A stretch of 64,000 bases of DNA, taken from contig NZ_JAQMYP010000003.1 in assembly GCF_028369295.1 (NCBI RefSeq), forward strand, positions 124,001 through 188,000, written 5' to 3'. Under the pieces are notes generated by a model that saw only the letters and a program-made list of their open reading frames with translations, was not told the origin of the DNA and searched no databases. The number at the start of each line of letters is the position of its first letter. Position 1 is the first letter of the stretch. Source of the DNA: Streptomyces sp. HD (lineage in GTDB: Bacteria; Actinomycetota; Actinomycetes; Streptomycetales; Streptomycetaceae). Position numbers and translations under genes: made by a program. Shown here one piece after another: positions 6,292-50,088 of the stretch.

Positions 6292-7179
6292 TCAAGCCGA
6301 CGCCAATTCCTGTGTCGTCATGACCGGCGTTGTGACCATCCGGTCGTAGCGGTGCAGCAGCAGCCTCGCCATCGCCGGGTGCGTGCCCAGCGGGGCCGAC
6401 GCCATCCATGGAGCCGCCTCCGCGGACTCCGTCGCGAAGCGGCCGGGGGCCGTGAAGTAGGAGGCCACGGCCACCCTGGTGCGGCCCCGGGCCGCCAGTG
6501 CGGCCAGCGCGTCCGGCACCGTGGGGGCCGCCGTCGTCGCGTAGGCCGGGACGACCGGGACGCCCAGGCGGTTGGCGAGGAGGTGGGCGGTGCGGGCGGT
6601 GTCGACCTTCGACTCGGGGTCGCGGGAGCCCGCCGCGGCGAGGACCACCGCGCTCTCGCGGCGTGTCGGCTCGTCCATGCGGGTGCGCCAGCCCGCCTCC
6701 ACGAGGCGGGAGTAGAGGGCCTCCACCAGCAGGGGGTGCGGGCCGAGGGCGCCGGCCACGCGTGCGCGTACCTGCGACTCGGCGGCCATCTCGGGGATGT
6801 CCCGCTTGATGTGGTAACCGCGGCTGAGCAGGAGGGGGACGAGGACCGCCTCGCGGTCGCCGAGGGCGGCGAGGGTGTCGGGGAGCAGGGGCTCGTTGAG
6901 CTCGATGTGGCCGAGGTGGACCGGCAGGGTGGGGCGCAGCTCGCGGACCTTGTCGAGGAGCGCGCTCACGGTGCTCAGGGCGCGCGGATCGCGGCTGCCG
7001 TGGGCCACGACGACGAGCGCGGGCGGTTCAGGACGCCGCCGGCCGTCGAGCGCGACGAGGCTGAGCTGGCTGGCTAGCTGGCTGCTGATCCGGTTCATGA
7101 TGTGCGCCGTACTGTCGAGGTGGGCCCCCGGGCCGGGGAGGGTCGTGGACTCGTCGTGAAGCGGGTTCGACGCCGTCAT
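6292..7179 (-). CDS. Sirohydrochlorin chelatase (CbiX family)
   Basis: Inserts ferrous iron (or cobalt) into sirohydrochlorin, giving siroheme for nitrite and sulfite reductases. The 295-residue protein is a tandem of two CbiX-type repeats. The first carries [12 protein letters not shown] with the metal-binding His60; the second carries [13 protein letters not shown], where the histidine is lost, as expected for a long form with one active half. A second histidine lies in HIELNEPLL near 95. The first 50 residues are not conserved and the real start may be the ATG at MNRISS, residue 28. Siroheme is the cofactor of NirB encoded at 26352, so this gene belongs functionally to the nitrate-assimilation set, although it could equally serve sulfite reductase. 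Confidence 0.9.
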
Positions 7180-7403
7180 GAACCGATGGTGGCGGCGGCA
7201 CGTTGCCGCCCCGTTTCACAGGAATAACGGGTTCTTACGCCGGGTTCACGCAAGGGTGCCAGGGCTGTGTGAGGCGGTGTGACCTGCGGCTTCGAGGAAT
7301 GGAGTGAAGCTGGTCACGTTGCGTACGGTGAACCGTCGAGGGCGACAGGACGTCCCTGAGTGTCGAGGGCGGGCCGTGAGCCGCCCCGGGGAGGGACCGT
7401 CCG

Positions 7404-8090
7404 ATGAGTCTGCCGAAGCCGCGCCGACCAAGACTGCCGCGCACCCGTACCGGGCAGCGGCGGCTGGTGCAGGCCGTGATGGCCGGGTGCGTGCTGGCGC
7501 TGCTGCCGGCCACCTGGATGTACGTCGTGACCGGTGACCGGCTGCGCACCACGGCCGATGCGCCGCGCACCGACGTCGCCGTCGTCTTCGGTGCCGGGCT
7601 GTGGGACGGCGAGCCGTCGCCGTACCTCGCCCACCGGCTCGACGCGGCGGCCGAGCTGTACCGCGCGGGGCGGATCGAGGTCGTCCTCGTCACCGGTGAC
7701 AACAGCCGGGAGGACTACGACGAGCCCGACGCGATGCGCGCGTATCTGACCCGGCACGGCGTGCCCGACTCGCGGATCGTGAGTGACTACGCCGGTTTCG
7801 ACACCTGGGACTCCTGTGTCCGGGCCAAGGAGATCTTCGGGGTCGACAAGGCGGTGCTGATCAGCCAGGGCTTCCACATCCGGCGGGCGGTCGCGCTGTG
7901 TCAGGAGGCGGGGGTGGCGTCGTACGGCGTCGGGGTCGACGCCAAGCACGACGTGACCTGGTACTACGGCGGTACGCGGGAGCTCTTCGCGGCCGGCAAG
8001 GCTGCCCTGGACGCCGTGTTCGAGCCGGACCCGCGGTTCCTCGGGCCGAAGGAGCCGGGGGTGGCGAACGCGTTGGCGGCGGGGCGATAG
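7404..8090 (+). CDS. SanA/YdcF-type (DUF218, ElyC family) membrane-anchored protein
   Basis: A 228-residue protein with a basic N-terminus (about 1-22) and one membrane segment (about 25-43, VMAGCVLALLPATWMYVV). A DUF218 domain facing outward follows: DVAVVFGAGLWDGEPSPYLAHRLDAA near 58-83, VLVTGDNSRE near 94, and the conserved VLISQGFHIRRAV near 153-165. Family members such as SanA affect envelope permeability and vancomycin resistance; the reaction is not established. It is divergent from the chelatase gene across a 224-bp gap and convergent with the enoyl-CoA hydratase gene, with a strong hairpin between. Family is clear, function only by analogy. Confidence 0.85.
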   Translation: MSLPKPRRPRLPRTRTGQRRLVQAVMAGCVLALLPATWMYVVTGDRLRTTADAPRTDVAVVFGAGLWDGEPSPYLAHRLDAAAELYRAGRIEVVLVTGDNSREDYDEPDAMRAYLTRHGVPDSRIVSDYAGFDTWDSCVRAKEIFGVDKAVLISQGFHIRRAVALCQEAGVASYGVGVDAKHDVTWYYGGTRELFAAGKAALDAVFEPDPRFLGPKEPGVANALAAGR

Positions 8091-8130
8091 CGGCGCCCGG
8101 GGCGGCCTCCTGTGGCCAGGGACCGCCCCC

Positions 8131-8172
8131 GGACGGGCGGGAGCGGGGCCCTCGCCCTGCTCCCGCCCGTCC
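8131..8172. terminator. Bidirectional hairpin terminator between convergent genes
   Basis: A perfect 14-bp inverted repeat, GGACGGGCGGGAGC and its complement, separated by 14 nt. It lies between the SanA-like gene and the convergent enoyl-CoA hydratase gene. There is no T tract, as is usual in Streptomyces terminators. Confidence 0.8.
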
Positions 8173-8198
8173 GCGCTCGGGACCCCGGAGAGGGTGCC

Positions 8199-8966
8199 TC
8201 AGCGTCCGGTGAAGCGCGGCCGGCGTTTGTCCAGGAACGCCGTCATCCCCTCCTTCTGGTCGTCGGTCGCGAACAGGGCGTGGAACACCCGGCGTTCGAA
8301 GAGGATGCCGTCGCGGAGCCCGGTTTCCAGGGCCCGGTCGACGCACTCGCGGGCCGCCGTGACCGCCGCACGGCCGTACGAGGCGATCGTCGCCGCCGCC
8401 TCCAGGGCCTCCGGCAGGACCCGGTCGTCCGGGACCACCCGGGAGACAAGACCGCAGCTTCCGGCCTCCCGTGCGTCCATGGTGCGGCCGGTGAGCACCA
8501 GGTCCATCGCCTTCGCCCGGCCGACCAGCCGGGTCAGGCGCTGGGTGCCGCCGATGCCCGGGATCACCCCCAGCTTGATCTCCGGCTGGCCGAAGACCGC
8601 CGACTCCCCCGCGATGACCAGGTCGCACATCATCGCCAGCTCACAACCACCGCCCAGCGCAAAGCCGTTGACGGCCGCGATCTTCGGGGTGCGGAACGAC
8701 GCGAACTCCTCCCAGGCTCCGAAGTAGTCCTCCGCCGCCATCTCCGCGGCCGTCTTCCCGGCCATCTCCTTGATGTCGGCGCCCGCCGCGAACACCCGTT
8801 CCGAGCCGGTGACGACGAAGCAGCCCACCTCGGGGTCGGCGTCCAACGGGCGCAGGGCGTCCAGGAGTTCGGCCAGCAGGTCGCCGCTCAGCGCGTTGAG
8901 CACATGCGGGCGGTGCAGGCGTACGGTCACCACGGCGCCGTCGCGCTCGATCTTCAGGTTGTCCAT
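8199..8966 (-). CDS. Enoyl-CoA hydratase/isomerase family protein
   Basis: A crotonase-fold enzyme of 255 residues. The two catalytic glutamates of true hydratases are present: Glu109 in GGGCELAMMCD and Glu129 in PEIKLGVIPGIGG. The oxyanion-hole segment is VFAAGADIKEM near 58-68. GGAGG stands 5 nt before the ATG. The gene starts 25 nt after the stop of the membrane flavoprotein gene on the same strand, so it is the third gene of an operon with the adenylation enzyme. The hydratase may therefore act on a product of those two rather than in general fatty-acid oxidation; that is inference. A housekeeping beta-oxidation role is the alternative. Confidence 0.92.
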   Translation of the reverse strand: MDNLKIERDGAVVTVRLHRPHVLNALSGDLLAELLDALRPLDADPEVGCFVVTGSERVFAAGADIKEMAGKTAAEMAAEDYFGAWEEFASFRTPKIAAVNGFALGGGCELAMMCDLVIAGESAVFGQPEIKLGVIPGIGGTQRLTRLVGRAKAMDLVLTGRTMDAREAGSCGLVSRVVPDDRVLPEALEAAATIASYGRAAVTAARECVDRALETGLRDGILFERRVFHALFATDDQKEGMTAFLDKRRPRFTGR

Positions 8967-8991
8967 GAGTGCCTCCAGGTTCCTCGGGGGT

Positions 8992-10251
8992 CTACGAGTC
9001 CCAGATCGCGCCGTACGCCGGGATCCCGCGCCGTTCCAGGCCGTGCACCACCTGCCAGGTGAGCTTCTTGTTGGAGATGCAGATGACGGCCTCGGCCCCG
9101 AAGTCCCGGTACGCCTCGTAGGCGAGCCGCACCATGTCGGGCTTGCCGCGCCGGGAGGTGTCCCAGACCAGGGCGTGCGGCTGGACGGCGAGGATCTCCT
9201 CGACCAGGGCGTCGCCGTAGGTGGTCCGGGGGTCTCGGGTCGCCCAGACCAGGCGGGCGGGGACCTCGGCGGCCAGCAGATGGGGCAGACAGGGGCCGAT
9301 GCCGCTGCCGGTGGCGACGTAGACCACCTTCTTGAACAGGGTCTCGATGTTGGCGACGCCCGCCGTGGTGATGCCCTTGACCCACACCTTCGGCGGGAGG
9401 TCGTCGATGAAGGCGCCCGTCCAGTCCCCGGCGCGGGAGATGGTGAGCCGGAAGCCGGACTCGCCGGGCGTCGGGACGTTGGCGAAGGAGTGCCACTGGG
9501 TCAACGGGCTGCGGCTGATCGCCGTGGACGAGCCCGCGAAGGGGGTCTCGCCGTGGTCGAAGCGGGCGAGGACGACGTGCGGGGAGGGGCGTTCGAGGCG
9601 TACGGCGACCTTGCGCAGCCGTAGCCAGGGCAGGGCGACGCTGAAGGTGACGACCGCCAGGACGGACACCTCCACCGGGCCCGGCGTGGACAGGAGCGTG
9701 TGCGCCCAGAAGAGGGCGAGGGCGCTCCAGCCGCCGAAGCGGTGGATCTTCTCGAAGTGGTCGTGGTGGCGGGAGCGGAACGGCGGCAGCGCGGTGGCGA
9801 CGATCACGGCGAGGAGGGTGACGAGGGTCCAGCTCACCGCCACCGTCAGGCCGTCGGCGCCGGTGAGCGTCGACCTCGTCGTCAGCGCCAGGAACCAGGC
9901 CGCTCCCGCCAGCGCCCCGCCGATGTGCAGCCCGCCGAAGTGGTACACCTTGCCCAGCGTCCAGCGGATCTTCAGTGGCCAGGTGGGCGGCGGCCAGGTG
10001 GCCAGCCGGAAGAAGAGGTTGATGACGTACTGCTGGCGGACGAGGACGGCGAGCGCGAGGTCGGCGAGGGCCGCGTGGCCCATGGTCCGCGGGGACGGGG
10101 CCCAACTCGCCCACAGGTAGGCCAGGTTGGCCGCCAGGACCAGTGCCGCCAGCCGGTTGTGGTGCATCAGCCGGGGGTGCTTGAGCAGGCGGCGCGGGAG
10201 CGAGGTGGGCGGGGGGAGTTCGACGGCCTCGCGGCGCAGGGAGGTGGTCAT
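8992..10251 (-). CDS. Membrane flavoprotein, ferric-reductase-like, with FAD/NAD(P)-binding domain
   Basis: A 419-residue protein with an N-terminal membrane half (residues about 35-210, four to five hydrophobic helices). Histidine pairs in YHFGGLHIGG and HHDHFEKIHRFGG could bind haem. The C-terminal half resembles ferredoxin-NADP reductase. QWHSFANVP near 263 stands where ferric reductases have the FAD-binding HPF motif, and VYVATGSGIGPCLPHLLA near 310 is the NAD(P) loop. The ATG overlaps the stop codon of the upstream adenylation gene as ATGA, so the two are translationally coupled. I recall related membrane flavoproteins from fungi (TmpA type), some linked to adenylation domains, but this was not checked. 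Expected role: a redox step at the membrane on an adenylate-derived product. Substrate unknown. Confidence 0.8.
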   Translation of the reverse strand: MTTSLRREAVELPPPTSLPRRLLKHPRLMHHNRLAALVLAANLAYLWASWAPSPRTMGHAALADLALAVLVRQQYVINLFFRLATWPPPTWPLKIRWTLGKVYHFGGLHIGGALAGAAWFLALTTRSTLTGADGLTVAVSWTLVTLLAVIVATALPPFRSRHHDHFEKIHRFGGWSALALFWAHTLLSTPGPVEVSVLAVVTFSVALPWLRLRKVAVRLERPSPHVVLARFDHGETPFAGSSTAISRSPLTQWHSFANVPTPGESGFRLTISRAGDWTGAFIDDLPPKVWVKGITTAGVANIETLFKKVVYVATGSGIGPCLPHLLAAEVPARLVWATRDPRTTYGDALVEEILAVQPHALVWDTSRRGKPDMVRLAYEAYRDFGAEAVICISNKKLTWQVVHGLERRGIPAYGAIWDS

Positions 10252-11786
10252 CGGGCCACCGCCATGCGCTCCTCGACCATCCGCAGCAGCGCCTGCTTGT
10301 CGATCTTGCCGCGGTCGGTCTCCGGCAGGAATGGCAGGGGCATGACATGCTCGGGCACGCAGTAGTACGGCAGCGCGTCCGCCACCGCGCGCCGGGCCGT
10401 GTCCGGGTCGACGTCCGCCGGGCAGACGAAGGAGACGAGGGTGCGGGCGTCCCGCTTCAGGGTCACCGCGCGCAGACAGCCGTCCACCCGCTCCAGTACG
10501 GAGGAGACGGAGTCGAGCTCGACCCGGAAGCCGCGCACCTTCACCTGGTCGTCGGTGCGGCCGAGGTGTTCGAGTGCGCCGTCGGGGGTCCAGCGGCCGA
10601 GGTCGCGGGTGCGGAACATACGGCGGCCGGCGCCCAGGAACGGGTCCGCTGCGTAGCGCTCCGCGTCGAGGGCGTCGTTGCCGAGATATCCGGCCGACAC
10701 ACAGTCGCCGCCCGCCCACATCTCCCCCACCTCGCCGATGGGCAGGGGGCGGCGGTCGGCGTCGAGGACGTAGACCGTGTTGTTGGGGGTGGGGCGGCCG
10801 ATGCCGAGCAGCGGGTCGGACGGGCGGTGGCGCTGCATCGTGTTGACGATGGTCGTCTCGGTCGGGCCGCAGCAGTTGTGGAAGGCGGCGGTGCGGGCCC
10901 ACCGGTCGGCGAGCGGGCGCGGGCAGGGCTCCCCGGCGACGGCGACCGTACGGACGCTCGGGCAGGCCGCCGGATCGATGCCGGACAGCACGGTCGGGGT
11001 CGCGACGATGACGTCGGCCGTACGGGCCGCCGCCGCGATGTCCTTGCCGCGGAGCACGAGGGTGCCGCCGTGGGTGAGACAGCCGAGGATCTCCCAGGCG
11101 GCCATGTCGAAGGCGACGTTGAGCAGCTGCGCGACCCGGTCACCGGGGCGGATACCGAGGCCGCCGGGTTCGGTGAGGAGGATGTTGGAGACGTTGCGGT
11201 GGGTGACCTTCACCCCGTTGGGGCGGCCGGTGGTGCCGGAGGTGAACAGGACGTAGCAGCCGTCGCCCGGCCGCGCCGGCGTGCGGGGTCCCGGGGCGTA
11301 CGGCTGTGGCGTGTCCAGCGTGATCATCAGGTGGCCGTCGGGCAGCGGCACGCGGTGGGTGTGCTCGGCGGTCGTGAGGACGACGCGGGTACGGGCGGTG
11401 CGGACGACGTGCGCGAGCTGGTCCGGGGGTGTGAGGCCGATGTCCTGGGGGACGTAGGCGGCGCCCGCCTTCAGGATGCCGAGCAGGCCGACGAGCATCG
11501 GGATCGAGCGGCGCACGAAGAGGCCGACGTGATCACCGGGGCGTACACCCTCGCGGGCGAGCCGGGCGGCGAGGGCGTCTGCGTGCCGGTCCAGCTCGCC
11601 GTAGGTGATGCGGTCGCCCAGGTGCTCGGCGGCGACGGCGTGCGGGGCGGCCGCGGCCTGCCGTTCGACGGCGCGGTGGACGAGCGGGTCGGGGACGGGG
11701 ACGGTGGGGCCGCGACCGTACTGCCAGAAGAGGCGCTGGTCACGGGGGGTGAGGTGGCCCAGGGGGCCTGGGGTGCGCAGGGGCAT
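10248..11786 (-). CDS. Stand-alone NRPS-type adenylation enzyme (AMP-binding)
   Basis: A 512-residue amino-acid-type adenylate-forming enzyme without condensation or carrier domain. Core motifs in order: A3 FTSGTTGRPNGVKVTH (about 183-198), A4 FDMAAWEIL with the aspartate that usually binds the substrate amino group, A5 NCCGPTETT (about 307), A7 RTRDLGRW, A8 GRTDDQVKVRGFRVEL (about 400-416), and the A10 lysine in DRGKIDKQAL near the C-terminus. The chosen ATG has AGGAGG 10 nt upstream; an in-frame ATG 63 nt earlier lacks one. Its stop overlaps the next start by 4 nt, and a hydratase follows. It may load an amino acid onto a carrier in trans or release an adenylate for reduction. No carrier-protein gene lies nearby. 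Confidence 0.9.
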   Translation of the reverse strand: MPLRTPGPLGHLTPRDQRLFWQYGRGPTVPVPDPLVHRAVERQAAAAPHAVAAEHLGDRITYGELDRHADALAARLAREGVRPGDHVGLFVRRSIPMLVGLLGILKAGAAYVPQDIGLTPPDQLAHVVRTARTRVVLTTAEHTHRVPLPDGHLMITLDTPQPYAPGPRTPARPGDGCYVLFTSGTTGRPNGVKVTHRNVSNILLTEPGGLGIRPGDRVAQLLNVAFDMAAWEILGCLTHGGTLVLRGKDIAAAARTADVIVATPTVLSGIDPAACPSVRTVAVAGEPCPRPLADRWARTAAFHNCCGPTETTIVNTMQRHRPSDPLLGIGRPTPNNTVYVLDADRRPLPIGEVGEMWAGGDCVSAGYLGNDALDAERYAADPFLGAGRRMFRTRDLGRWTPDGALEHLGRTDDQVKVRGFRVELDSVSSVLERVDGCLRAVTLKRDARTLVSFVCPADVDPDTARRAVADALPYYCVPEHVMPLPFLPETDRGKIDKQALLRMVEERMAVAR

Positions 11787-11852
11787 GACGTGGGGACCTC
11801 CTGGCTGTTTCGAGTACCGAATGCCGTGCGGAGTCCATGCGTCGTACAACGC

Positions 11853-12040
11853 CAGGGCCTGTCCGGCGGATCATGCCGGCGGCGCGGGCCCTGGCACGCA
11901 CATCTGCTGCGTTGTCGTCGGTTGCCGACGCTCCGCGTCGTCGCCCTCCTCCGCCTTGCAGCTGCACGCACCAGACCCCGCTCGGCTTGGCCGGTCTGCG
12001 CCGTTTCTTGCAGCCGGCCTGATCCGCCGGACAGGCCCTG
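11853..12040. mobile_element. MITE-like element with 21-bp perfect terminal inverted repeats
   Basis: The 188-bp element starts CAGGGCCTGTCCGGCGGATC and ends with its exact complement; 8 of the next 10 bases also match. A CGC triplet flanks both ends, which may be a 3-bp target duplication. The right terminal repeat is itself nearly palindromic (GGCCTG-A-TCCG-C-CGGA-CAGGCC), so each end could fold as a hairpin. The inside has no credible ORF. A solo copy of the end with one mismatch is at 22816-22840. It sits about 70 bp upstream of the adenylation gene start. Non-autonomous mobility is inferred from structure. Confidence 0.8.
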
Positions 12041-12246
12041 CGCAGTGCTGGACGTGCGCACGACTGTAGCCCTGGTTTTTCAACTCTCAACAAGGCGTGA
12101 CCGGCCAACTACTAGACCGAATGAGCCACATGTGGTGTCTTTCACAACAGCGGCAACCTTCGTACCGCCCGGCGGCGACTCCATGCGGGGCGCCTGTGCG
12201 CCTCACGGCGGCCGGGCGGCGACGGGGAGGTCACCGTCCCGGCCGC

Positions 12247-12296: not shown

Positions 12297-14528
12297 ATGC
12301 CGAACTCCGCGACGCCCACGCACTGCCCGTACTGCGCCCTGCAGTGCGGAATGAACCTCACGCCCTTGCAGGACGGGGGTGTCGCGGTGGTCGAGCGCCC
12401 GGACTTCCCGGTGAACAAGGGGGCGCTGTGCGGCAAGGGCCGTACGGCTCCCGCGGTGCTGTCGTCGAGCGTCCGCCTGACGTCGCCGCTGGTGCGGTCG
12501 CCGGCCGGCACGCTCGTGCCGGCCACCTGGGACGAAGCGCTCGACCGCATCGCCGAGGGCCTGGCACGCACGCGTACGGAACATGGCCCGGACGCGTGCG
12601 GGGTCTTCGGCGGGGGCGGCCTGACGAACGAGAAGGCCTACAACCTCGGCAAGTTCGCGCGGATCGTGCTCGGCACCTCACAGATCGACTACAACGGCCG
12701 GTTCTGCATGTCCTCGGCCGCCGCGGCCGGGATGAAGGCGTTCGGCCTGGACCGGGGGCTGCCGTTCCCGCTGGAGGACATCCCCAGGACGGGCTGCGTC
12801 ATCCTCGTCGGCTCCAACCTCGCCGAAACGATGCCGCCGTCGCTGCGGTTCTTCAACGAGCTGCGCGAGAACGGCGGCACGCTGATCGTCATCGACCCGC
12901 GCCGCACGAAGACCGCCGAGCAGGCCGACCTGCACCTCGCTCCCCGCCCCGGCACCGACCTCGCGCTGGCCCTCGGCCTGCTGCACCTGGTCGTCGCCGA
13001 GGGGCGGGTGGACGAGGAGTACGTCCAGGAGCGCACGGCCGGCTGGGAGGACGCGCGGGCCGCCGCGATGGCGCACTGGCCGGAGTACGTGGAGCGGATC
13101 ACGGGAGTGTCCGTTCCCCAACTCCGGGAAGCCGTACGGATGTTCTGCGAGCCCGAGCACGCGATGGTGCTGACCGCGCGCGGGCCCGAGCAGCAGTCCA
13201 AGGGCACCGACACGGTGGGCGCGTGGATCAACCTGTGCCTGGCGACGGGACGGGCGGGTCGCCCGCTGTCCGGCTACGGCTGTCTCACCGGGCAGGGCAA
13301 CGGACAGGGCGGGCGCGAACACGGCCAGAAGGCCGACCAGCTGCCCGGCTACCGCAAGCTGGACGACCCGGCGGCGCGGCGGCACGTCGCCGAGGTGTGG
13401 GGCGTCGACCCGGACAGCCTGCCCGGCCCCGGCCGCAGTGCGTACGAGCTGCTGGACGCGCTGGGCACGGACATCAGGTCGCTGCTGCTGATGGGCTCCA
13501 ACCCGGTGGTGTCGGCGCCGCGTGCCGCACACGTCGAGGAGCGGATCAAGTCCCTCGACTTCCTTGCCGTGTGCGACGTCGTGCTGTCGGAGACGGCCGC
13601 GCTCGCGGACGTGGTCCTGCCGGTCACGCAGTGGGCGGAGGAGTCGGGCACGACGACCAACCTGGAGGGCCGCGTCCTGCTGCGCCGCCGCGCCGTGACC
13701 CCGCCGGAGGGCGTCCGCAGCGACCTGGAGGTCATGCACGAGCTCGCGGCACGGCTGGGTGGGGAGCGCGGGCTGGAGAAGGGCTTCCCGACCGACCCCG
13801 AGGAGGTCTTCGAGGAGCTGCGGCGGGCCAGCGCGGGCGGGGCGGCGGACTACTCGGGGATCACGTACCGGAGGCTGGCGGAGGAGAACGGGGTGTTCTG
13901 GCCGTGCCCCGCGGCGCCGGGAACGACGGGAGCGACCGCAGCGGACGCCGTCGAAGGCCCCGAGGGCTCCGCCGGCACCGAGGACTGCGAGGACGCCTCG
14001 CTGGACGCGATCGCGGTGGCCGACGACCCGGCGCAGGACGACGAGGCGACGGGCACCGCCGTACACCCGGGCACGCCCCGCCTCTTCCTCGACCGCTTCG
14101 CCACGCCCGACGGCCGCGCGAGGTTCGTCCCCGTCACGCACCGGGCGGCGGCCGAGGAACCCGACGACGAGTACCCGGTGCTGCTGACGACGGGGCGGGT
14201 CGTGGCGCAGTACCAGTCCGGCGCCCAGACCCGCCGCGTGGACGAGCTGAACGCCGCCGCGCCGGGCCCGTTCGTGGAGCTGCACCCTCGCCTTGCGGCG
14301 CGGCTCGGGGCGGCCGAGGGCGACCCGGTGGCCGTGGTCTCGCGGCGGGGCCGGGCGGTGGCGCCCGCCCGCATCACGACCGGCATCCGCCCGGACACCG
14401 TCTTCATGCCGTTCCACTGGCCGGGCGAGGGCCGCGCCAACACCCTGACCAACCCGGCGCTGGACCCGACGTCGCGGATGCCGGAGTTCAAGGCGTGTGC
14501 GGTGCGGGTGGAGGCGGTGCAGCAGTAG
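12297..14528 (+). CDS. narB: Assimilatory nitrate reductase, molybdopterin catalytic subunit
   Basis: Reduces nitrate to nitrite in the cytoplasm for nitrogen assimilation. This 743-residue NarB/NasA-type protein binds one 4Fe-4S cluster through Cys10, Cys13, Cys17 and Cys45 (HCPYCALQCGM and ALCGKG). The molybdenum-ligating cysteine is Cys137 in YNGRFCMSS. The bis-MGD-binding core follows, and the C-terminal molybdopterin-dinucleotide domain starts near residue 615 (EYPVLLTTGR). An acidic Ala/Asp/Glu-rich stretch at about 540-585 looks like a lineage-specific insert. There is no export signal, so it is assimilatory. The ribosome-binding site is weak. A GlnR-like box lies just upstream. Its electron donor may be the flavoprotein at 25033. 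The last codons are part of a tandem duplication. Confidence 0.95.
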   Translation: MPNSATPTHCPYCALQCGMNLTPLQDGGVAVVERPDFPVNKGALCGKGRTAPAVLSSSVRLTSPLVRSPAGTLVPATWDEALDRIAEGLARTRTEHGPDACGVFGGGGLTNEKAYNLGKFARIVLGTSQIDYNGRFCMSSAAAAGMKAFGLDRGLPFPLEDIPRTGCVILVGSNLAETMPPSLRFFNELRENGGTLIVIDPRRTKTAEQADLHLAPRPGTDLALALGLLHLVVAEGRVDEEYVQERTAGWEDARAAAMAHWPEYVERITGVSVPQLREAVRMFCEPEHAMVLTARGPEQQSKGTDTVGAWINLCLATGRAGRPLSGYGCLTGQGNGQGGREHGQKADQLPGYRKLDDPAARRHVAEVWGVDPDSLPGPGRSAYELLDALGTDIRSLLLMGSNPVVSAPRAAHVEERIKSLDFLAVCDVVLSETAALADVVLPVTQWAEESGTTTNLEGRVLLRRRAVTPPEGVRSDLEVMHELAARLGGERGLEKGFPTDPEEVFEELRRASAGGAADYSGITYRRLAEENGVFWPCPAAPGTTGATAADAVEGPEGSAGTEDCEDASLDAIAVADDPAQDDEATGTAVHPGTPRLFLDRFATPDGRARFVPVTHRAAAEEPDDEYPVLLTTGRVVAQYQSGAQTRRVDELNAAAPGPFVELHPRLAARLGAAEGDPVAVVSRRGRAVAPARITTGIRPDTVFMPFHWPGEGRANTLTNPALDPTSRMPEFKACAVRVEAVQQ

Positions 14529-25032: not shown

Positions 25033-26352
25033 ATGACCTCGAATACGCGTGTGGTGGTGATCGGCGCCGGCCTCGCGGGCGTACGGCTCGCCCGGCGGCT
25101 CGGCGAGCTCGGCACGCCCGTGACGCTCGTCGGCGAGGAGGAGCACCGCCCGTACAACAGGGTGCTGCTCGCCGAGGTGCTGGCCGGACGCTACAGCCCC
25201 GACGTGATCGCCCTCCCGACGCCCGCGGAGCTGACGCGCGGCCGGGTCACCGGCATCGACCGCGAGATGCGGACCGTACAGCTCGCGGACGGACCGGAGA
25301 TCGCATACGACACGCTCGTCCTGGCCACCGGCTCCAACCCGGTGCTGCCGCCGCTGCGCGGCCTGTTCACGGACATGTACCTCGCATCGAATCACCGGGC
25401 CGGCGACCCGACCCGCCCTTCCGGCCGGGGGTCCGGGGGTCGTCCCCCGGGAAGGCACAGCACTCCCGACCATGTGCTGCCGGAGGGCGTTCACGCCTTC
25501 CGCACGATGGACGACTGCCTGGGCCTGTCCAAGGCGGTCCGGCCGGGTGCGCGGGCGGTCGTGATCGGCGGCGGGCTGCTCGGGGTCTCCGCGACCCGGG
25601 CCCTCGCGCTGCGCGGCGCACAGGTCGTGCTCGCCCAGCAGGGCGAGCGGCTCATGGAGCGCCAGCTCGACCCGAGCGCCTCGAAGCTCGTACAGCGGCA
25701 CCTGAAGGACCTCGGCGTCGAGATCCACACCGAGTGCCGCGTCCGTGACGTGCGCTGTGTCGGCGGCGCGGTCCGTTCGGTGGAGATGGCCGACGGTTAC
25801 GCCCTGGACGCCGACATCGTGGTCCTGGCCTGCGGTGTCCGCCCGCGTGCGGGCCTCGCCCAGGCCGCGGGACTTCAGGTGCGCAAGGGGATCGTCGTGG
25901 ACGACGAACTGCGTACGTCCGACCCGCACATCCGGGCCGTCGGGGACTGCGCACAGCACGACGGGACCGTGTACGGGCTGGCCGCGCCCGCACTCGAACA
26001 GGCCGACGTGCTCGCCGAGTTGCTGGCCGGGGACGGCGCCGCCGCCCGCTACACCGGCACCCGGGCGCTGACCCGGCTCACCCTCGCCGGGCAGGACAGC
26101 CCGCTGGGTTCCTTCGACCTCGCCGCGTTCGGCGAGACGGAGGCCCGGCCCGGCGACGACGTCGTGCAGCTCGCCGACGCCACCCGCGGCACCTACCGCA
26201 AGGTCGTCGTCCGCGACGACCGCCTGGTCGGCGGGGTCCTCGTCGGCGAACTCGGCACCGTCGGCGCGCTCGCCCGCGCCTGGGAGGGAGCAGAGCCGCT
26301 CCCCGACGACGGCCCTCTGCTCCACCTGCTCACCAACGATGGAGGCTCCTGA
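25033..26352 (+). CDS. FAD-dependent oxidoreductase, nitrite/nitrate reductase electron-transfer partner
   Basis: A 439-residue flavoprotein resembling the N-terminal half of NirB and NasB-type electron-transfer subunits. FAD-binding VVVIGAGLAGVRLARRLGEL is at 7-26, the NAD fold VVIGGGLLGVSATRALALRG is near 177-196, and SDPHIRAVGDCAQHDG is near 296-311. It lacks iron-sulfur cysteines. Residues about 118-146 are a Gly/Pro/Arg-rich insertion between two conserved strands; the DNA there is a dispersed hairpin repeat. It is the first gene of the operon, and its stop overlaps the nirB start as TGATG. It probably passes electrons from NAD(P)H to the nitrate reductase encoded at 12297 or to NirB. 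It is controlled from the GlnR-like box upstream. Confidence 0.9.
   Translation: MTSNTRVVVIGAGLAGVRLARRLGELGTPVTLVGEEEHRPYNRVLLAEVLAGRYSPDVIALPTPAELTRGRVTGIDREMRTVQLADGPEIAYDTLVLATGSNPVLPPLRGLFTDMYLASNHRAGDPTRPSGRGSGGRPPGRHSTPDHVLPEGVHAFRTMDDCLGLSKAVRPGARAVVIGGGLLGVSATRALALRGAQVVLAQQGERLMERQLDPSASKLVQRHLKDLGVEIHTECRVRDVRCVGGAVRSVEMADGYALDADIVVLACGVRPRAGLAQAAGLQVRKGIVVDDELRTSDPHIRAVGDCAQHDGTVYGLAAPALEQADVLAELLAGDGAAARYTGTRALTRLTLAGQDSPLGSFDLAAFGETEARPGDDVVQLADATRGTYRKVVVRDDRLVGGVLVGELGTVGALARAWEGAEPLPDDGPLLHLLTNDGGS
25433..25450. repeat. Hairpin repeat embedded in a coding sequence
   Basis: CCGGGGG and CCCCCGG form a stem, followed by AAGGCACAGC. It matches the intergenic hairpin and tail at 4690-4717. 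The surrounding in-frame insert (roughly 25385-25470) is absent from the conserved fold, so an intergenic-type repeat appears to have been taken up into the gene. Confidence 0.6.
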
Positions 26353-28973
26353 TGACCGCCACCCCGGAGGCCACGGAGGCCACGGAGGCCACCCCCACGA
26401 TCGTGCTCGTCGGCCACGGCATGGTCGGCCAGCGCTTCCTCGAAGCGCTCGCCGAGCGCGGCATGACCGCCACGCACCGCGTGGTCGTGCTGTGCGAGGA
26501 GCCGCGTCCGGCATACGACCGCGTGGCGCTGACCTCGTACTTCTCCGGCAAGACGCCCGAGGACCTCTCCATGACGGACATGGAGTTCATCAAGGACCAC
26601 GGCATCGAGCTGTACGTCGGTGACCCGGCGGTCTCCGTCGACCGCGAGGCGAAGAAGGTCACCGCCAGGTCCGGCGAGGTCTTCGAGTACGACACCCTCG
26701 TCCTCGCCACCGGCTCGTACCCGTTCGTGCCGCCGGTCCCCAACAAGGACGCCGAGGGCTGCTTCGTCTACCGCACGATCGAGGACCTCCTCGCCATCGA
26801 GGAGTACGCGAAGACCCGCACGACGGGTGCCGTGGTCGGCGGCGGTCTGCTCGGTCTGGAGGCGGCCGGTGCCCTGAAGGGGCTCGGACTCACCTCCCAC
26901 ATCGTGGAGTTCGCGCCCCGGCTGATGCCCGTCCAGGTCGACGAGGGCGGCGGCGCGGCGCTGCTGCGCACCATCGAGGACATGGGCCTGACGGTCCACA
27001 CCGGTGTGGGCACGCAGGAGATCGTCACCGACGAGTCCGGCGCGGTCACCGGTATGAAGCTGTCCGACGGATCCGAACTCGCCACCGACATGGTGGTGTT
27101 CTCCGCCGGTGTCCGCCCCCGCGACCAGCTGGCCCGCGACTGCGGCCTCACGGTCGGCGAGCGCGGCGGCATCACGGTCGACGAGCAGTGCCGTACGGTC
27201 GCCGACCCGCACGTGTTCGCGATCGGCGAGTGCGCGCTGGCCTCGGACGGCCGGGTGTACGGCCTGGTGGCCCCGGGTTACGAGCAGGCCGAGACGGCCG
27301 CCGCGACGATCGCCGCCGACGAGTCGGAGCAGTTGGCGTTCACCGGCGCCGACCTGTCCACCAAGCTGAAGCTGCTCGGCGTGGACGTGGCGTCCTTCGG
27401 TGACGCGCACGGCACCGCCGAGGACTGCCTGGACGTCGTGTACTCCGACTCCCGCGCGGGCCTGTACAAGAAGCTGGTCATCGGCCGCGACGGCACGCTG
27501 CTCGGCGGCATCCTGGTCGGTGACGCGGAGGCGTACGGCACGCTGAAGGCCTTCACCGGCTCGGTCCCGCCGGTCTCGCCGGAGTCGCTGGTGCTGCCGG
27601 CCGGTGCGGGCGCCCCCGCCCAGCTCGGCCCGTCGGCCCTCCCCGACGAGGCGGTCATCTGCTCCTGCCACAACGTCACCAAGGGCACCATCCGCGGCGC
27701 GGTCACCGACCACCAGTGCACGACCGTGCCCGAGGTGAAGAAGTGCACCAAGGCCGGCACCGGATGCGGCTCCTGCGTCAAGGTGCTCGGCCAGCTGGTC
27801 ACCGCCGAGCTGGAGGCGTCCGGCGTCGAGGTCGACAAGGGCCTGTGCGGCTGCTTCTCGCAGACCCGCGAGGAGCTCTACGAGATCGTCCTCGCCCTGC
27901 GCGTCAACACCTACCAGGACCTGCTCGACCGCTACGGCCGCGACGGCGCCAAGGGCGGCGACGGCTGCGAGATCTGCAAGCCGGCGGTCGGCTCGATCAT
28001 CGCCTCCCTCGCCCCGACGATCGGCGCGAGCGGCTATGTGCTGGACGGCGAGCAGGCGTCGCTGCAGGACAGCAACGACCACTTCCTCGCCAACATCCAG
28101 AAGAACGGCTCGTACTCGGTCGTCCCGCGCATCCCCGGCGGTGAGATCACCCCCGAGGGGCTGATCGTGATCGGCGAGATCGCCCGCGACTTCGGCCTCT
28201 ACACGAAGATCACCGGCGGCCAGCGGATCGACATGTTCGGCGCGCGGGTCGAGCAGCTCCCCCTGATCTGGGCGCGATTGGTGGACGCCGGCTTCGAGTC
28301 CGGGCACGCGTACGGCAAGTCGCTGCGCACCGTGAAGTCCTGTGTGGGCCAGACCTGGTGCCGTTACGGCGTCCAGGACTCGGTCCGGATGGCGATCGAC
28401 CTGGAGCTGCGCTACCGGGGCCTGCGCTCGCCGCACAAGCTGAAGTCGGCGGTCTCCGGCTGCCAGCGCGAGTGCGCGGAGGCCCAGTCGAAGGACTTCG
28501 GCGTGATCGCCACCGCCAACGGCTGGAACCTCTACGTCGGCGGCAACGGCGGCGCGACCCCGCGCCACGCGGACCTGCTCGCGCAGGACCTGACCGACGC
28601 CGAACTGATCCGCCTGATCGACCGGTTCCTGATGTTCTACATCCGTACCGCGGACCGCCTGGAGCGCACGAGCGTGTGGCTGGAGCGGATCCCGGGCGGC
28701 CTGGACCACGTCCGTGACGTGGTCGTCGAGGACTCCCTCGGCATCTGCGAGGAGCTGGAGACGCTGATGGCGGCCCATGTCGCGAACTACCGCGACGAAT
28801 GGTCGGAGACCATCAGCGACCCGGAGAAGCTGGCCCGATTCGTCTCCTTCATCAACGCCCCCGACACCCCCGACCCGGTCGTCGGCTTCGTCCCCGAGCG
28901 CGACCAGATCAAGCCCGACCTGCCGCTGCTCACCATCGGCCACCGTCCCCTGGAAGGAAGCGCCCAGCGATGA
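26352..28973 (+). CDS. nirB: Assimilatory nitrite reductase (NADH), large subunit NirB
   Basis: Reduces nitrite to ammonium with six electrons from NAD(P)H in the cytoplasm. The 873 residues hold every expected module: FAD motif TIVLVGHGMVGQRFLEAL at 16-33, NAD fold AVVGGGLLGLEAAGAL near 159-174, a BFD-type [2Fe-2S] domain with Cys437, Cys439, Cys472 and Cys475, and a second BFD-like segment (CGCFSQTREELYEIV near 499). The C-terminal sulfite/nitrite reductase domain follows. Siroheme and 4Fe-4S ligands are Cys664, Cys670, Cys704 and Cys708 in CVGQTWC and SGCQREC. It overlaps the flavoprotein gene upstream (TGATG) and nirD downstream (ATGA). GlnR control is expected from the operon promoter. 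Confidence 0.98.
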   Translation: MTATPEATEATEATPTIVLVGHGMVGQRFLEALAERGMTATHRVVVLCEEPRPAYDRVALTSYFSGKTPEDLSMTDMEFIKDHGIELYVGDPAVSVDREAKKVTARSGEVFEYDTLVLATGSYPFVPPVPNKDAEGCFVYRTIEDLLAIEEYAKTRTTGAVVGGGLLGLEAAGALKGLGLTSHIVEFAPRLMPVQVDEGGGAALLRTIEDMGLTVHTGVGTQEIVTDESGAVTGMKLSDGSELATDMVVFSAGVRPRDQLARDCGLTVGERGGITVDEQCRTVADPHVFAIGECALASDGRVYGLVAPGYEQAETAAATIAADESEQLAFTGADLSTKLKLLGVDVASFGDAHGTAEDCLDVVYSDSRAGLYKKLVIGRDGTLLGGILVGDAEAYGTLKAFTGSVPPVSPESLVLPAGAGAPAQLGPSALPDEAVICSCHNVTKGTIRGAVTDHQCTTVPEVKKCTKAGTGCGSCVKVLGQLVTAELEASGVEVDKGLCGCFSQTREELYEIVLALRVNTYQDLLDRYGRDGAKGGDGCEICKPAVGSIIASLAPTIGASGYVLDGEQASLQDSNDHFLANIQKNGSYSVVPRIPGGEITPEGLIVIGEIARDFGLYTKITGGQRIDMFGARVEQLPLIWARLVDAGFESGHAYGKSLRTVKSCVGQTWCRYGVQDSVRMAIDLELRYRGLRSPHKLKSAVSGCQRECAEAQSKDFGVIATANGWNLYVGGNGGATPRHADLLAQDLTDAELIRLIDRFLMFYIRTADRLERTSVWLERIPGGLDHVRDVVVEDSLGICEELETLMAAHVANYRDEWSETISDPEKLARFVSFINAPDTPDPVVGFVPERDQIKPDLPLLTIGHRPLEGSAQR

Positions 28974-47810: not shown

Positions 47811-48168
47811 CAGCACAGCCTTCTCGGGGCAGTTGGCCTGGTGTTTGCCCAGCGTTTGCCGAGCGCTGGGGCGTTTTGGCTGAACAGCGGCTGGGGGCCC
47901 ACCGTACGGATGGGTGGCGGGCCCGGGCGGGTCCGAGGAGGTGCGGGTGCGTTCCCGCGTCGTTCGGTGCGTGCTCTCGGTGTGCCGGGGGAAGACCCTC
48001 GTAGCGGAGCTACTTGGGTCTTCCCCCGGTGCGGCGAGTGGGGGTGCCCCCTCTGGGGGAGCGTGCCGGGCGGCGTGGGGGCGTGCTCGCACCTCCTCGG
48101 ACCCGCCACCTCCCCAGCGAGGCCCGCCGCACCACTCCACCAGGGGCCTCGCACGGAAGGACCTTCGG
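47590..48168. other. Repeat-filled region between the glycosidase and sulfatase genes
   Basis: About 580 bp with no supported gene. It consists of MITE-like copy 2, about 100 bp of unassigned DNA, a third related element (47913-48110), and about 58 bp leading to the ribosome-binding site of the sulfatase gene. Small open frames here follow repeat sequence and are not convincing. Confidence 0.65.
47913..48110. mobile_element. Third element: same core hairpin, different terminal repeats
   Basis: The right end CGCACCTCCTCGGACCCGCC plus ACC is matched at the left by GGTGGCGGG and GTCCGAGGAGGTGCG with a 9-bp insertion between them. The core shares with copies 1 and 2 the run from GTGCGTGC through CCTCGTAGCGGAGCTACTTGG to GGGGGAGCGTGCCGGGC. 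The central stem (47987-47998 with 48016-48027, enclosing GTAGC-GGA-GCTAC) is perfect here. Confidence 0.75.
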
Positions 48169-50088
48169 GTGCCTGTCTTCACTCGCCTACGTCAACTGCA
48201 CATGAAGAACGACGACTTGACCGACGAGGCACCCACGAGCGCCACGGAGACAACGTCGCCGGCCACGCCGGAATCCGCACCCACAGAGGGCGATCCCGCA
48301 GCCACAGAGGGCAATCCCGCACCCGACAACGACGGTCCCGCAGCCGCCGACGGCGGGGACGCCCCACAGGGGCCACCCGCACCCGACGACGAAAGTGACG
48401 CGGGTGGTGCGGGTGGGAACAACGAGGGCGACGGCGAAGCCGAGCCCGAGAAGCGACCGGCGCCCCCGTACCTCCGCTGGACCTTGACCGCCCTCGCCGC
48501 CGCCCTCATCCACGTCTGCCTGCAAATGCCGAACACCCTCGGCAACCTCAAACCCACGGAGTTCCTGCGCCTCCCCGCAGAGGCCGTCATCGGAGCCGCC
48601 GTACTCCTCACGCTCCCCCGCCGCCCCCGCCTGATCGCCGCAGCGACCTCCGGCGCGGCCCTGGGCGCCCTGACCGCCCTGAACCTCCTCGACATGGGCT
48701 ACAACGAATTCCTGGGCCGCCACTTCAACATCGTCCTGGACTGGGAACTCCTCGACGACGCCCACTCGTACATCGAGGACTCCCTCGGCGGCACGACCAC
48801 GGTCCTGCTCACCATCGGCCTCGTCATCCTGGTCGTACTCCTCATAGCCCTCGTCGCCCTGGCCACCGTACGCATAGCCGACCTCCTCGCCCGCCACAAG
48901 GCGGACGCCTCCAAGGGCGCCCTCATCGCCGGCACCGTATGGATCACCTGCACGGCGTTCGGCCTGCAGATAGCCGGCGTACCGATCGCCGCGGACCACA
49001 CCGCCGGCGTCATCAAGGTCCACGCCCGCCGCGCGCTGGACACCCTCCGCGACGAGGCGGCGTTCGCACAGGACGCGAAGACCGACACCTTCGGCAACAC
49101 ACCCCCGGCCCAACTGGTCCCCGACCTGCGCGGCAAGGACATCGTCTTCACCTTCATCGAGAGCTACGGCCGCAGCGCGATCGAGGACCCGGAGATCGCC
49201 CCGGGCGTCACCGGCACTCTCGACACCTCCACCCAGGCCCTGGCGAAGGCCGGCTACCACGCGAAGAGCGGCTGGCTCACGTCGGCGACCTACGGCGGCA
49301 GCAGCTGGCTGGGCCACTCCACCACCCTCTCGGGTCTGTGGATCGACAACCAGCAGCGCTACCGCACCGTCATGGCCAGCGACCACCTCAGCCTCACCAA
49401 GGTCTTCCGGAAGACCGGCGACTGGGACACGGTCGGCGTCATGCCCGGCGTCCAGAAGGCCTGGCCGGAGCAGAGCTACTACGGCCTCGACAAGGTCTAC
49501 AACGCCTTCCAACTCGGCTACAAGGGGCCGAAGTTCAGCTGGTCGACCATGCCCGACCAGTACGCCCTCGAAGCCTTCCAGCGCCAGGTCCACGGCAAGA
49601 AGCACGACAAGCCCCTGATGTCGGAGATCATCCTGACCTCCAGCCACCAGCCCTGGGCACCGATCCCGAAGATGGTCGACTGGGACGACCTGGGCGACGG
49701 TTCCCTCTTCAAGCCCATCCAGCAGGCGGGCACGAAACCGGCGGACATCATCTCCGACTCCACCCGCTCCAAGCAGGAGTACGGAAAGTCGATCTCGTAC
49801 TCGGTGACCAGCCTCACCCAGTGGCTGGAGCGCTACGGCACCGACGACACCGTCCTGGTCTTCCTCGGCGACCACCAGCCGATGGCCCGGGTCAGCGGCA
49901 CCAAGGCCAGCCGGGACGTCCCGATCTCGATCGTCGCCAAGGACCCGAAGGTGCTGGACAAGATCTCCGACTGGAACTGGACGGACGGCCTCCAGCCCGC
50001 CGCCAAGGCCCCCGTGTGGAAGATGAGCTCCTTCCGGGACCGTTTCCTGACGGCATACGGCTCGACTCCGCACCCCTCCAAGGAGTGA
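48169..50088 (+). CDS. Lipoteichoic-acid-synthase-like membrane sulfatase-fold protein
   Basis: A 639-residue alkaline-phosphatase-superfamily protein. Residues 1-105 are a cytoplasmic, Pro/Glu/Asp/Ala-rich acidic tail. About five membrane helices lie between 108 and 275. The extracytoplasmic sulfatase domain runs from about 322: IVFTFIESYGRSAIEDPEIA (first metal site), SATYGGSSWLGHSTTLSG near 365-382 (nucleophile region) and TVLVFLGDHQPM near 561 with the Asp-His metal pair. This is the LtaS/phosphoglycerol-transferase layout, so it probably transfers a phosphoglycerol-like group to an envelope polymer. GTG is the start, with GGAAGGA 7 nt upstream. Substrate is inferred, as Streptomyces wall polymers differ from lipoteichoic acid of Bacillus. 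Confidence 0.88.
   Translation: MPVFTRLRQLHMKNDDLTDEAPTSATETTSPATPESAPTEGDPAATEGNPAPDNDGPAAADGGDAPQGPPAPDDESDAGGAGGNNEGDGEAEPEKRPAPPYLRWTLTALAAALIHVCLQMPNTLGNLKPTEFLRLPAEAVIGAAVLLTLPRRPRLIAAATSGAALGALTALNLLDMGYNEFLGRHFNIVLDWELLDDAHSYIEDSLGGTTTVLLTIGLVILVVLLIALVALATVRIADLLARHKADASKGALIAGTVWITCTAFGLQIAGVPIAADHTAGVIKVHARRALDTLRDEAAFAQDAKTDTFGNTPPAQLVPDLRGKDIVFTFIESYGRSAIEDPEIAPGVTGTLDTSTQALAKAGYHAKSGWLTSATYGGSSWLGHSTTLSGLWIDNQQRYRTVMASDHLSLTKVFRKTGDWDTVGVMPGVQKAWPEQSYYGLDKVYNAFQLGYKGPKFSWSTMPDQYALEAFQRQVHGKKHDKPLMSEIILTSSHQPWAPIPKMVDWDDLGDGSLFKPIQQAGTKPADIISDSTRSKQEYGKSISYSVTSLTQWLERYGTDDTVLVFLGDHQPMARVSGTKASRDVPISIVAKDPKVLDKISDWNWTDGLQPAAKAPVWKMSSFRDRFLTAYGSTPHPSKE

Follow-up and report, generated by a model that had tools for sequence, protein, structure and literature searches.

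The fungal proteins TmpB of Aspergillus nidulans, TmpL of Alternaria brassicicola and Aspergillus fumigatus, and ChNPS12 are described as combining an adenylation domain, unaccompanied by carrier or condensation domains, with a membrane oxidoreductase that uses flavin adenine dinucleotide (FAD) and NAD(P) (PMC4804170, PMC2766074, PMC2823734). Reported roles of TmpA, TmpB, and TmpL in fungi concern sporulation, redox balance, and virulence (PMC4804170, PMC2766074). The present study concerns a trio of bacterial genes with a like combination of parts, here called A, B, and C, which encode a lone adenylation enzyme of the nonribosomal peptide synthetase (NRPS) type, a membrane flavoprotein of NADPH-oxidase (NOX) fold, and an enoyl-CoA hydratase. 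The trio lies in a 64,000-nucleotide stretch of the genome of Streptomyces sp. HD (RefSeq assembly GCF_028369295.1, contig NZ_JAQMYP010000003.1, positions 124,001 to 188,000), which is referred to in its entirety as the window and belongs to an assembly of 10.4 Mb in 200 contigs.

Among the fungal proteins, TmpB is a polypeptide of 989 residues, and AfeA, which belongs to the same pathway as TmpA, is described as required for an extracellular sporulation signal, with TmpB proposed to make another (PMC4804170). The FAD/NAD domain of TmpL binds flavin, and orthologues of TmpL were reported in 2009 from filamentous fungi only (PMC2766074). Lone adenylation domains of the bacteria Salinispora and Hahella were placed in the ChNPS12/ETP clade in 2010 (PMC2823734). 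In a published assay, Sare0718, a lone adenylation domain of Salinispora arenicola, activated L-alanine (L-Ala) as its sole substrate among 20 amino acids, with a Km of 0.116 mM and a kcat of 12.6 per min; its authors treated the domain alone, left the adjoining sare0717 as hypothetical, and noted that sare0719, on the opposite flank, encodes a phosphopantetheinyl transferase (PMC3360062). We report here that A, B, and C very probably constitute one co-inherited metabolic module, that the trio is likely a member of the TmpB/TmpL group, the fungal likeness being drawn from described architecture and motifs, and that it probably makes one small amino-acid-derived molecule. The case comprises an operon that spans phyla well beyond chance, a step for which an assay has been published, a NOX-like protein of unusual make-up, and a counterpart in fungi.

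Distribution and shared history of the trio

Within the genus of the window, 28 of the 246 genomes scanned for B gave a hit, as did 27 of the 242 scanned for A, the best 6–7 candidates per genome having been scored in each scan. The two occurred together in 26 genomes (hypergeometric p ~2e-31 with the total set at 242 genomes for A and B alike, a value that ignores species relatedness), and the three exceptions were a genome with a truncated A (G092), one with a broken piece of B (G034), and one in which the contig ends (G250); neither the truncated A nor the broken B had another gene of the trio within 12 kb. Twenty-eight loci with an intact B were compared, 27 from the genus (window included) and one, G450, from another family, with a 34% partial match that we attribute to chance (L004) and a broken B (L029) left out of the counts for the genus. 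C followed B in all 28, and A preceded B in each of the 27 whose contig reaches A. A 4-nucleotide overlap, ATGA or GTGA, was present in 27 of 27 loci of the genus and G450 taken together; elsewhere, it recurred in 28 of the 53 loci in which A and B are not fused. The window shares its flanks with G057, G197, and G009 (dnaG, an HD-domain gene, CbiX, and DUF218 on one side, a molybdopterin oxidoreductase gene on the other), whereas G102, G188, G113, and G450 have nothing but A-B-C in common within 16 kb, so that the conserved unit is exactly three genes.

Beyond the genus, a collection of 84,980 bacterial and archaeal genomes, each representing a different species, was scanned with an alignment of 11 B sequences as the query. 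This returned 407 relatives of B, of which the best 80, ranked by likeness to a Pantoea protein and therefore not a random sample, were kept. A stood before B, in the same direction, in 72 of these 80 loci, which by record title belong to the Pseudomonadota (33), Bacteroidota (27), Chloroflexota (7), Actinomycetota (4), and one cyanobacterium. C lay behind B in 68 of the 72; among the other four, two (L086 and L096) lie on contigs that stop shortly past B and were scored as C not seen, one (L090) has a truncated C, and in one (L072) the hydratase, which lies further on, is unrelated. A and B form one reading frame of ~1000 residues in 19 of the 72 loci, 16 of them from Bacteroidota and three from Pseudomonadota, and the fused state requires at least three changes on well-supported branches of the B tree. 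These bacterial fusions call in question the statement that TmpL is confined to filamentous fungi.

The remaining eight kept loci (Pantoea, Erwinia, Mixta, and an enterobacterium) hold B without A or C. In the six of these eight genomes that were searched, no orthologue of A was found, the best matches being NRPS domains at 38% identity, and the lone B of the Erwiniaceae may have a different job. The lone B proteins of L031 and L035–L042 (Pantoea, Erwinia, Mixta) are more divergent, at 43–47% identity, and that of L041 sits amid housekeeping genes (dnaJ, nhaA-like, ribF-like, and ileS-like). Three cyanobacterial plasmids (L032, at 6475-9078, L033, and L034) carry a distant B, 31–32% identical over the longer match, followed on each plasmid by a gene of ~415 codons whose product is an HlyD-type membrane fusion protein in both of those scanned (L032 and L034).

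The frequency of the module was estimated from random samples of phyla, with scoring limited to the best 4 to 11 candidates of each genome. With the chosen positive centre included, hits numbered 2 of 247 in Bacteroidota, 4 of 398 in Pseudomonadota, 2 of 151 in Chloroflexota, and 1 of 146 in cyanobacteria, and the window's own phylum gave 3 of 396, window included; the module is thus rare, with a frequency between roughly 1 in 75 and 1 in 150 genomes even when the chosen centres are included. Five of the hits were not centres, and four of these (L122, L124, L125, and L126) showed A-B-C.

The history of C was examined in a tree of 94 hydratases, made up of 76 C proteins of the trio and 18 paralogues from eight of the same genomes; of 32 matches outside the trio, 21 were taken as loci, and three of these (L149, L154, and L156) were skipped for a stop in the aligned stretch. 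Seventy-five of the 76 C proteins, from five phyla, formed one clade (support 100/99), with that of L072 falling outside. C proteins of other phyla are 61–64% identical to that of the window and those of two other actinobacteria 67–69%, compared with 47% for the best paralogue in the window's own genome and 56–58% for the nearest paralogues anywhere in the sample. The C proteins of five phyla are thus closer to one another than to the sampled paralogues, and we reject the idea that C is no more than a neighbouring housekeeping hydratase. That the three genes are chance neighbours altogether is likewise contradicted by their order, their overlap, the clade of C, and the differing flanks.

The trees of B and C also show horizontal transfer. 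A Granulosicoccus (Gammaproteobacteria) stands beside a metagenome-assembled genome of the Chloroflexota in both (B tree 100/98, C tree 100/92), which argues that B and C travelled together. The genes also decay together: in P. anatoliensis (L090), the key pocket residue D235 of A has become G, and C was found behind B only as a stub of its first ~43 residues, while G034 and G092 each retain a single broken gene of the trio within 12 kb. It is plausible that the module is old. An earlier note on this sequence had proposed that the adenylation enzyme and the flavoprotein are a pair and that the three genes serve a small dedicated pathway; A and B are indeed adjacent in bacterial relatives, and the same gene order and boundaries in five phyla, together with the signs of joint movement, agree with such a pathway.

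Properties of the three proteins

The product of A matched TIGR01733 with 344.5 bits (cut-off 317.4) as well as PF00501, and no carrier or condensation family was among its Pfam matches. Its pocket code was read via motif anchors, in PheA numbering, alongside those of other A proteins (n = 97, with the window duplicate L001, L002, and the short L080 excluded). The code of the window is DMWVAACIVK, formed by D227, M228, W231, V261, A282, A284, C305, I313, V314, and K494. Across the 97 proteins, six positions are invariant or nearly so (D235 in 96; M236, W239, A301, I330, and K517 in all 97), three vary conservatively between two residues (278, I in 88 and V in 9; 299, A in 88 and I in 9; 331, V in 70 and I in 27), and position 322 is S in 42, C in 27, A in 23, and G in 5. 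A pocket this nearly constant across phyla points to one substrate class for the A enzymes of the trio. Fifteen of the 97, including those of three Micromonospora, have the code DMWIAAAIVK, which is the code printed for Sare0718 (PMC3360062), and Salinispora belongs to the same family as Micromonospora. The code of the window is identical to it at 8 of 10 positions. A structure model of a fused A-B protein (pLDDT 74, pTM 0.48) was too weak to be used for the mutual orientation of A and B.

B matched no Pfam or NCBIfam family and, as a single query, no PDB sequence, and it is listed as hypothetical in annotated plasmid records; lacking a family model and labelled in this way, it makes the trio easy to miss. 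A structure model built from 58 aligned sequences (pLDDT 92.6, pTM 0.88) has its best whole-chain matches in the bacterial NADPH oxidase SpNOX (Z 24.5 with 360 residues aligned, 4.3 Å, 12% identity; Foldseek E 7e-13) and in human phagocyte NADPH oxidase (Z 22.5). It has six membrane-length helices (residues 30–48, 54–70, 102–129, 134–154, 163–187, and 192–210), which are followed by an FNR-fold cytosolic FAD/NADPH dehydrogenase domain of the NOX type (Z 14.6 against the isolated dehydrogenase domain 8qq5). The motifs WHSFA (253–257), GDWT (275–278), and GSGIGP (315–320) were identified, as was a C-terminal W417-D-S; of the TmpA-type motifs, GSGIGP is exact, and the counterpart of RLHFD reads LARFD (228–232). 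Searched as a sequence profile, B reached NOX2 (E 0.0011), with WHSFA aligned to WHPFT and GDWT to GDWT, and a second stretch, insignificant alone (3.2 bits), aligned H170 of B with H209 of NOX2. The structural alignment extends to the final residue of SpNOX, and W417 of B would pair with F397, a residue that is altered in deposited SpNOX mutants and that we take to stack on the flavin.

The histidines of the membrane part set B apart from this class. H109, H163, and H170 are conserved in 58 of 58 sequences and H104 in 55 of 58. By the helix order of the model, these four should lie at the ends of helices 3 and 5 on the cytosolic side, with H109 at the corresponding depth of helix 3. No other column of helices 3 and 5 has histidine in at least three of the 58 rows, column 184 excepted (H in 10, Q in 42). 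B therefore departs from the set of four haem histidines of NOX (NOX2 101, 115, 209, and 222), which is described as required in NOX, whereas YedZ and STEAP retain the surface pair and some algal members are without one outer histidine (PMC3591440). As the outer-haem histidines are not conserved, we reject B as a plain NOX, and plain ferric-reductase chemistry is doubtful also; B seems to lack the usual route by which electrons leave the cell, and the electron acceptor should be on the inner side. The earlier note had described B as a ferric-reductase-like membrane flavoprotein and had proposed a structural model with attention to haem and FAD sites. The fold was found over the whole chain, with FAD and NADP motifs and a domain of the geometry that binds these cofactors; of the haem sites, the cytosol-side histidines are conserved and the outer pair is absent.

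C matched the enoyl-CoA hydratase/isomerase family PF00378 with 253 bits and PRK05862 over its whole length with 376 bits, under the cut-off of 396 bits, and its closest PDB match was EchA8 (3pzk, E 6.6e-92). E109 and E129, which we take from the crotonase family motif to be the catalytic glutamates, are kept in 75 of 75 C proteins of the clade, and C should accordingly be capable of hydrating an unsaturated thioester, as far as its residues indicate. Position 93 is T in 74 of the 75 and K in 14 of the 18 paralogues, and the substrate is perhaps other than a standard CoA ester.

A proposed pathway and competing readings

On balance, we favour the reading that the trio is a biosynthetic module, complete in itself and horizontally mobile, the split bacterial counterpart of TmpB/TmpL with the neighbouring hydratase, and that it would work in four steps. 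In the first of these, A would use ATP to convert L-Ala or a small relative into the aminoacyl-AMP, a reaction shown for Sare0718 and extended to the window by analogy. As no carrier domain is present, the acyl group would then pass to CoA or another pantetheine thiol. B, to judge by its modelled fold and motifs, would perform redox chemistry on the activated amino acid at the cytosolic membrane face, and the formation of an alpha,beta-unsaturated thioester, like the start of beta-oxidation, would be the simplest fit with C. C, in which the catalytic residues are present, would hydrate this thioester, and the product would be a small compound derived from an amino acid, which may be exported or serve as a signal, as has been suggested for TmpB in Aspergillus. 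This order of activation, desaturation, and hydration is favoured because it is the simplest use of all three enzymes; as an exact chemistry, it is offered tentatively and at well short of an even chance. That the trio would work like the fungal TmpB/TmpL is an argument from analogy that we hold with fair confidence.

Several points weigh against the module and the pathway so outlined. The link between the genes is not universal: the hydratase of L072 is unrelated to C of the trio, G1013, a pseudomonadote from the random sample, has A-B with no C within the 12.4 kb fetched, and the eight loci of Erwiniaceae type and the three cyanobacterial plasmids have B with neither A nor C nearby. As to the substrate, the authors of Sare0718 caution that its substrate in vivo may differ (PMC3360062). 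The pocket code of the window departs from that of Sare0718 at 2 of 10 positions, and L-Ala is small for a route through desaturation and hydration. The haem assignment in B depends on helix register and a 3-bit profile stretch. In the NOX/FNR class, flavoproteins take electrons from NAD(P)H and hand them to acceptors, and we know of none that desaturates an acyl thioester. T93 in place of the usual lysine of C could point to a thiol carrier other than CoA, and no report of any reaction downstream of adenylation was found in the open-access literature.

The electron direction that troubles desaturation would suit a reading in which B, in the manner of a carboxylate reductase, uses NAD(P)H to reduce the aminoacyl-AMP or thioester to an amino aldehyde or alcohol, with C acting on a different, later acyl-CoA. 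A carrier would be unnecessary if the adenylate itself were reduced, and NAD(P)H-dependent reductases often follow adenylation domains, as in the carboxylate reductases and aminoadipate reductase. To our knowledge, however, no FNR-type flavoprotein reduces an acyl-AMP, and C would be left without an evident role although it is present in 68 of 72 loci, so we consider this reading improbable. The same difficulty with C, a canonical hydratase, meets the proposal that B serves redox control as a genuine NAD(P)H oxidase or as a quinone or metal reductase, and that A and C make or modify its cofactor or regulator within a redox-stress device. The whole-chain NOX fold and the NADP and FAD motifs of B are what such a device would need, but there is no conserved histidine at the outer-haem positions, and the outward electron route seems to be missing. 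A catalase-related gene and cytochrome b561 follow the module in nine Pseudomonas loci, neighbours that are limited to that one genus. In fungi, loss of tmpL increased sensitivity to oxidative stress in two species (PMC2766074), whereas deletion of tmpB in A. nidulans altered sporulation without sensitivity to H2O2 (PMC4804170). We judge a redox-control function to be unlikely.

It is very unlikely, in our view, that A feeds an activated amino acid to the carriers of other assembly lines while B and C are independent and lie nearby for regulatory reasons. Stand-alone adenylation domains that feed other NRPSs are known (PMC2823734), and a phosphopantetheinyl transferase gene adjoins sare0718 (PMC3360062), but the A-B fusions, joint gene loss, common history of C, and varied genome contexts all indicate one unit. 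A bolder form of the favoured reading, the biosynthetic module, is that the same kind of small, diffusible amino-acid-derived signal is made in five bacterial phyla and in filamentous fungi, with B a NOX scaffold re-used to oxidise an activated amino acid; its outer haem would have been lost, and its cytosol-side cluster (H104, H109, H163, and H170, with E167) could hold either haem or a non-haem metal centre. We regard this as speculative and doubtful, and if it were true, the conidiation signal of TmpB would be identifiable from a bacterium.

Genomic surroundings and comparison with known systems

The layout of the trio is given in Table 1. The strands, ends, and genes of the earlier note, including the coupling of A to B and the spacing of C, were reproduced, as was the description of A as free of carrier and condensation domains (its Pfam matches beyond PF00501 being weak and below threshold). 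The sequence AGGAGG precedes the ATG of A and supports the start given.

Table 1 Coordinates of the trio and its junctions in the window
Feature	Position	Strand	Basis or remark
Gene C, enoyl-CoA hydratase, 255 aa	8199..8966	-	PF00378
B-C gap, 25 bases, GGAGG upstream of C	8967..8991	-	
Gene B, membrane flavoprotein of NADPH-oxidase fold, 419 aa	8992..10251	-	Model and motifs
ATGA overlap of A stop (TGA) and B start (ATG), 4 nt	10248..10251	-	
Gene A, lone NRPS-type adenylation enzyme, 512 aa	10248..11786	-	PF00501, TIGR01733; ATG at 11786

Between A and a divergent molybdopterin oxidoreductase gene lies an inverted repeat (11845-12060, arms ~11853-11883 and 12010-12040) with 24 matches in its own genome at E <= 1e-5 among the 40 of 150 candidates scored, three of these being the element itself. 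The best other copies are 84–93% identical, and some match the middle only and some the ends only; from its sequence, it looks like a short dispersed palindromic element. The molybdopterin oxidoreductase gene (12297-14528, nitrate-reductase-like) and a NirB-type nitrite reductase gene (26352-28973) suggest a nitrate-assimilation stretch, and the trio adjoins the molybdopterin oxidoreductase in only the 3 nearest of 7 relatives examined. Elsewhere in the window, a reading frame of 724 residues on the plus strand (47914-50088) has strong coding bias and no Pfam match at E <= 1e-5.

In other lineages, the trio has neighbours of its own. A DUF6733-like gene stands directly after C in 25 of 27 Bacteroidota loci (e.g., L100, at 11145-11876) and is a fourth gene of the module in that phylum; the calls were made by PF20507 in the two scanned and by blastp in the remainder, both proteins inspected start like signal peptides, and no mention of DUF6733 was found in the open-access literature. 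The same place is taken in two Pleioneaceae by a Gcw_chp gene (PF09694; L046, at 11171-11815, and L105, at 11034-11696), and the Gcw_chp and DUF6733 products could both be envelope proteins. Grimontia and one Enterovibrio (L051–L053 and L079, at 11.5-15.4 kb) carry, downstream of the module, a gene for a beta-eliminating lyase of the tryptophanase family (PF01212), HlyD and DUF2955 genes occur in L052, L053, L073, and L079, and HlyD lies near the module in 7 Vibrionaceae loci. Across the 19-kb loci, histidine-kinase genes were found in 17 and response-regulator genes in 19–20. We discarded these neighbours (two-component, DUF6733, HlyD, and tryptophanase-family lyase genes) as clues to function, each being confined to certain lineages.

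The trio is a compact bacterial operon, and its hosts include groups amenable to culture and manipulation (Streptomyces, Pseudomonas, Vibrionaceae, and Aquimarina), so that the question of the fungal product becomes one of reconstitution with three enzymes, for which a published assay suggests the first substrate. B is tied by fusion to an amino-acid-activating enzyme. We know of no other NOX-fold protein with only a cytosol-side haem site, and B would be the first. No paper joining the bacterial A-B-C trio was found among the titles and abstracts listed by searches of the open-access literature. What is new here is the trans-phylum module, the bacterial fusions, the inner-side-only B, and the link between Sare0718 and TmpB.

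Measured against single proteins of known type, C is like EchA8/PRK05862 over its whole length and in both glutamates but falls in a separate clade and has T rather than K at position 93. B resembles SpNOX and the NOX/DUOX proteins in whole-chain fold, in its FAD and NADP motifs, and in an aromatic residue third from the C-terminus; it differs in its 12% identity, in keeping only the cytosol-side haem histidines, and in reading HSFA for HPFT. With YedZ/MsrQ and STEAP, which are single-haem members of the ferric reductase domain superfamily, it shares the expectation of one haem site, and its transmembrane part superposes on STEAP1 with Z 13.9 over 163 residues, a score near the level that helical bundles reach by arrangement alone. 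YedZ and STEAP, however, keep the surface-side haem (PMC3591440), whereas B keeps the cytosol-side pair and has its own FAD/NAD domain.

Among whole systems, the Sare0718 locus comes close: as in the trio, a lone adenylation domain (sare0718), the 'hypothetical' sare0717, and an enoyl-CoA hydratase/isomerase (sare0716) are consecutive (PMC3360062), and by pocket code and neighbours, the sequences themselves not having been compared, sare0716-0718 looks like the same trio. The description of the module as little studied thus holds largely, with the qualification that its first step has already been assayed, with L-Ala, for Sare0718 of Salinispora (PMC3360062). The fungal pairs to which the earlier note alluded are real in TmpB, TmpL, and ChNPS12 (PMC4804170, PMC2766074, PMC2823734) and have a parallel in the bacterial A-B fusions. 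The pocket residues of TmpB (D238, W242, C307, G309, I315, and K495) are all present in A of the window when matched by motif spacing only (PMC4804170), and the motif GSGIGP is common to B and the TmpB/TmpL type. An enoyl-CoA hydratase/isomerase gene adjoins tmpB in several Aspergilli (PMC4804170) and is a third part common to both systems, whereas in the window the hydratase C belongs, by its position, to the same operon as A and B. In TmpB and TmpL the two activities are carried on one polypeptide, whereas A and B of the window are separate genes, which makes the window the split counterpart of the fungal system.

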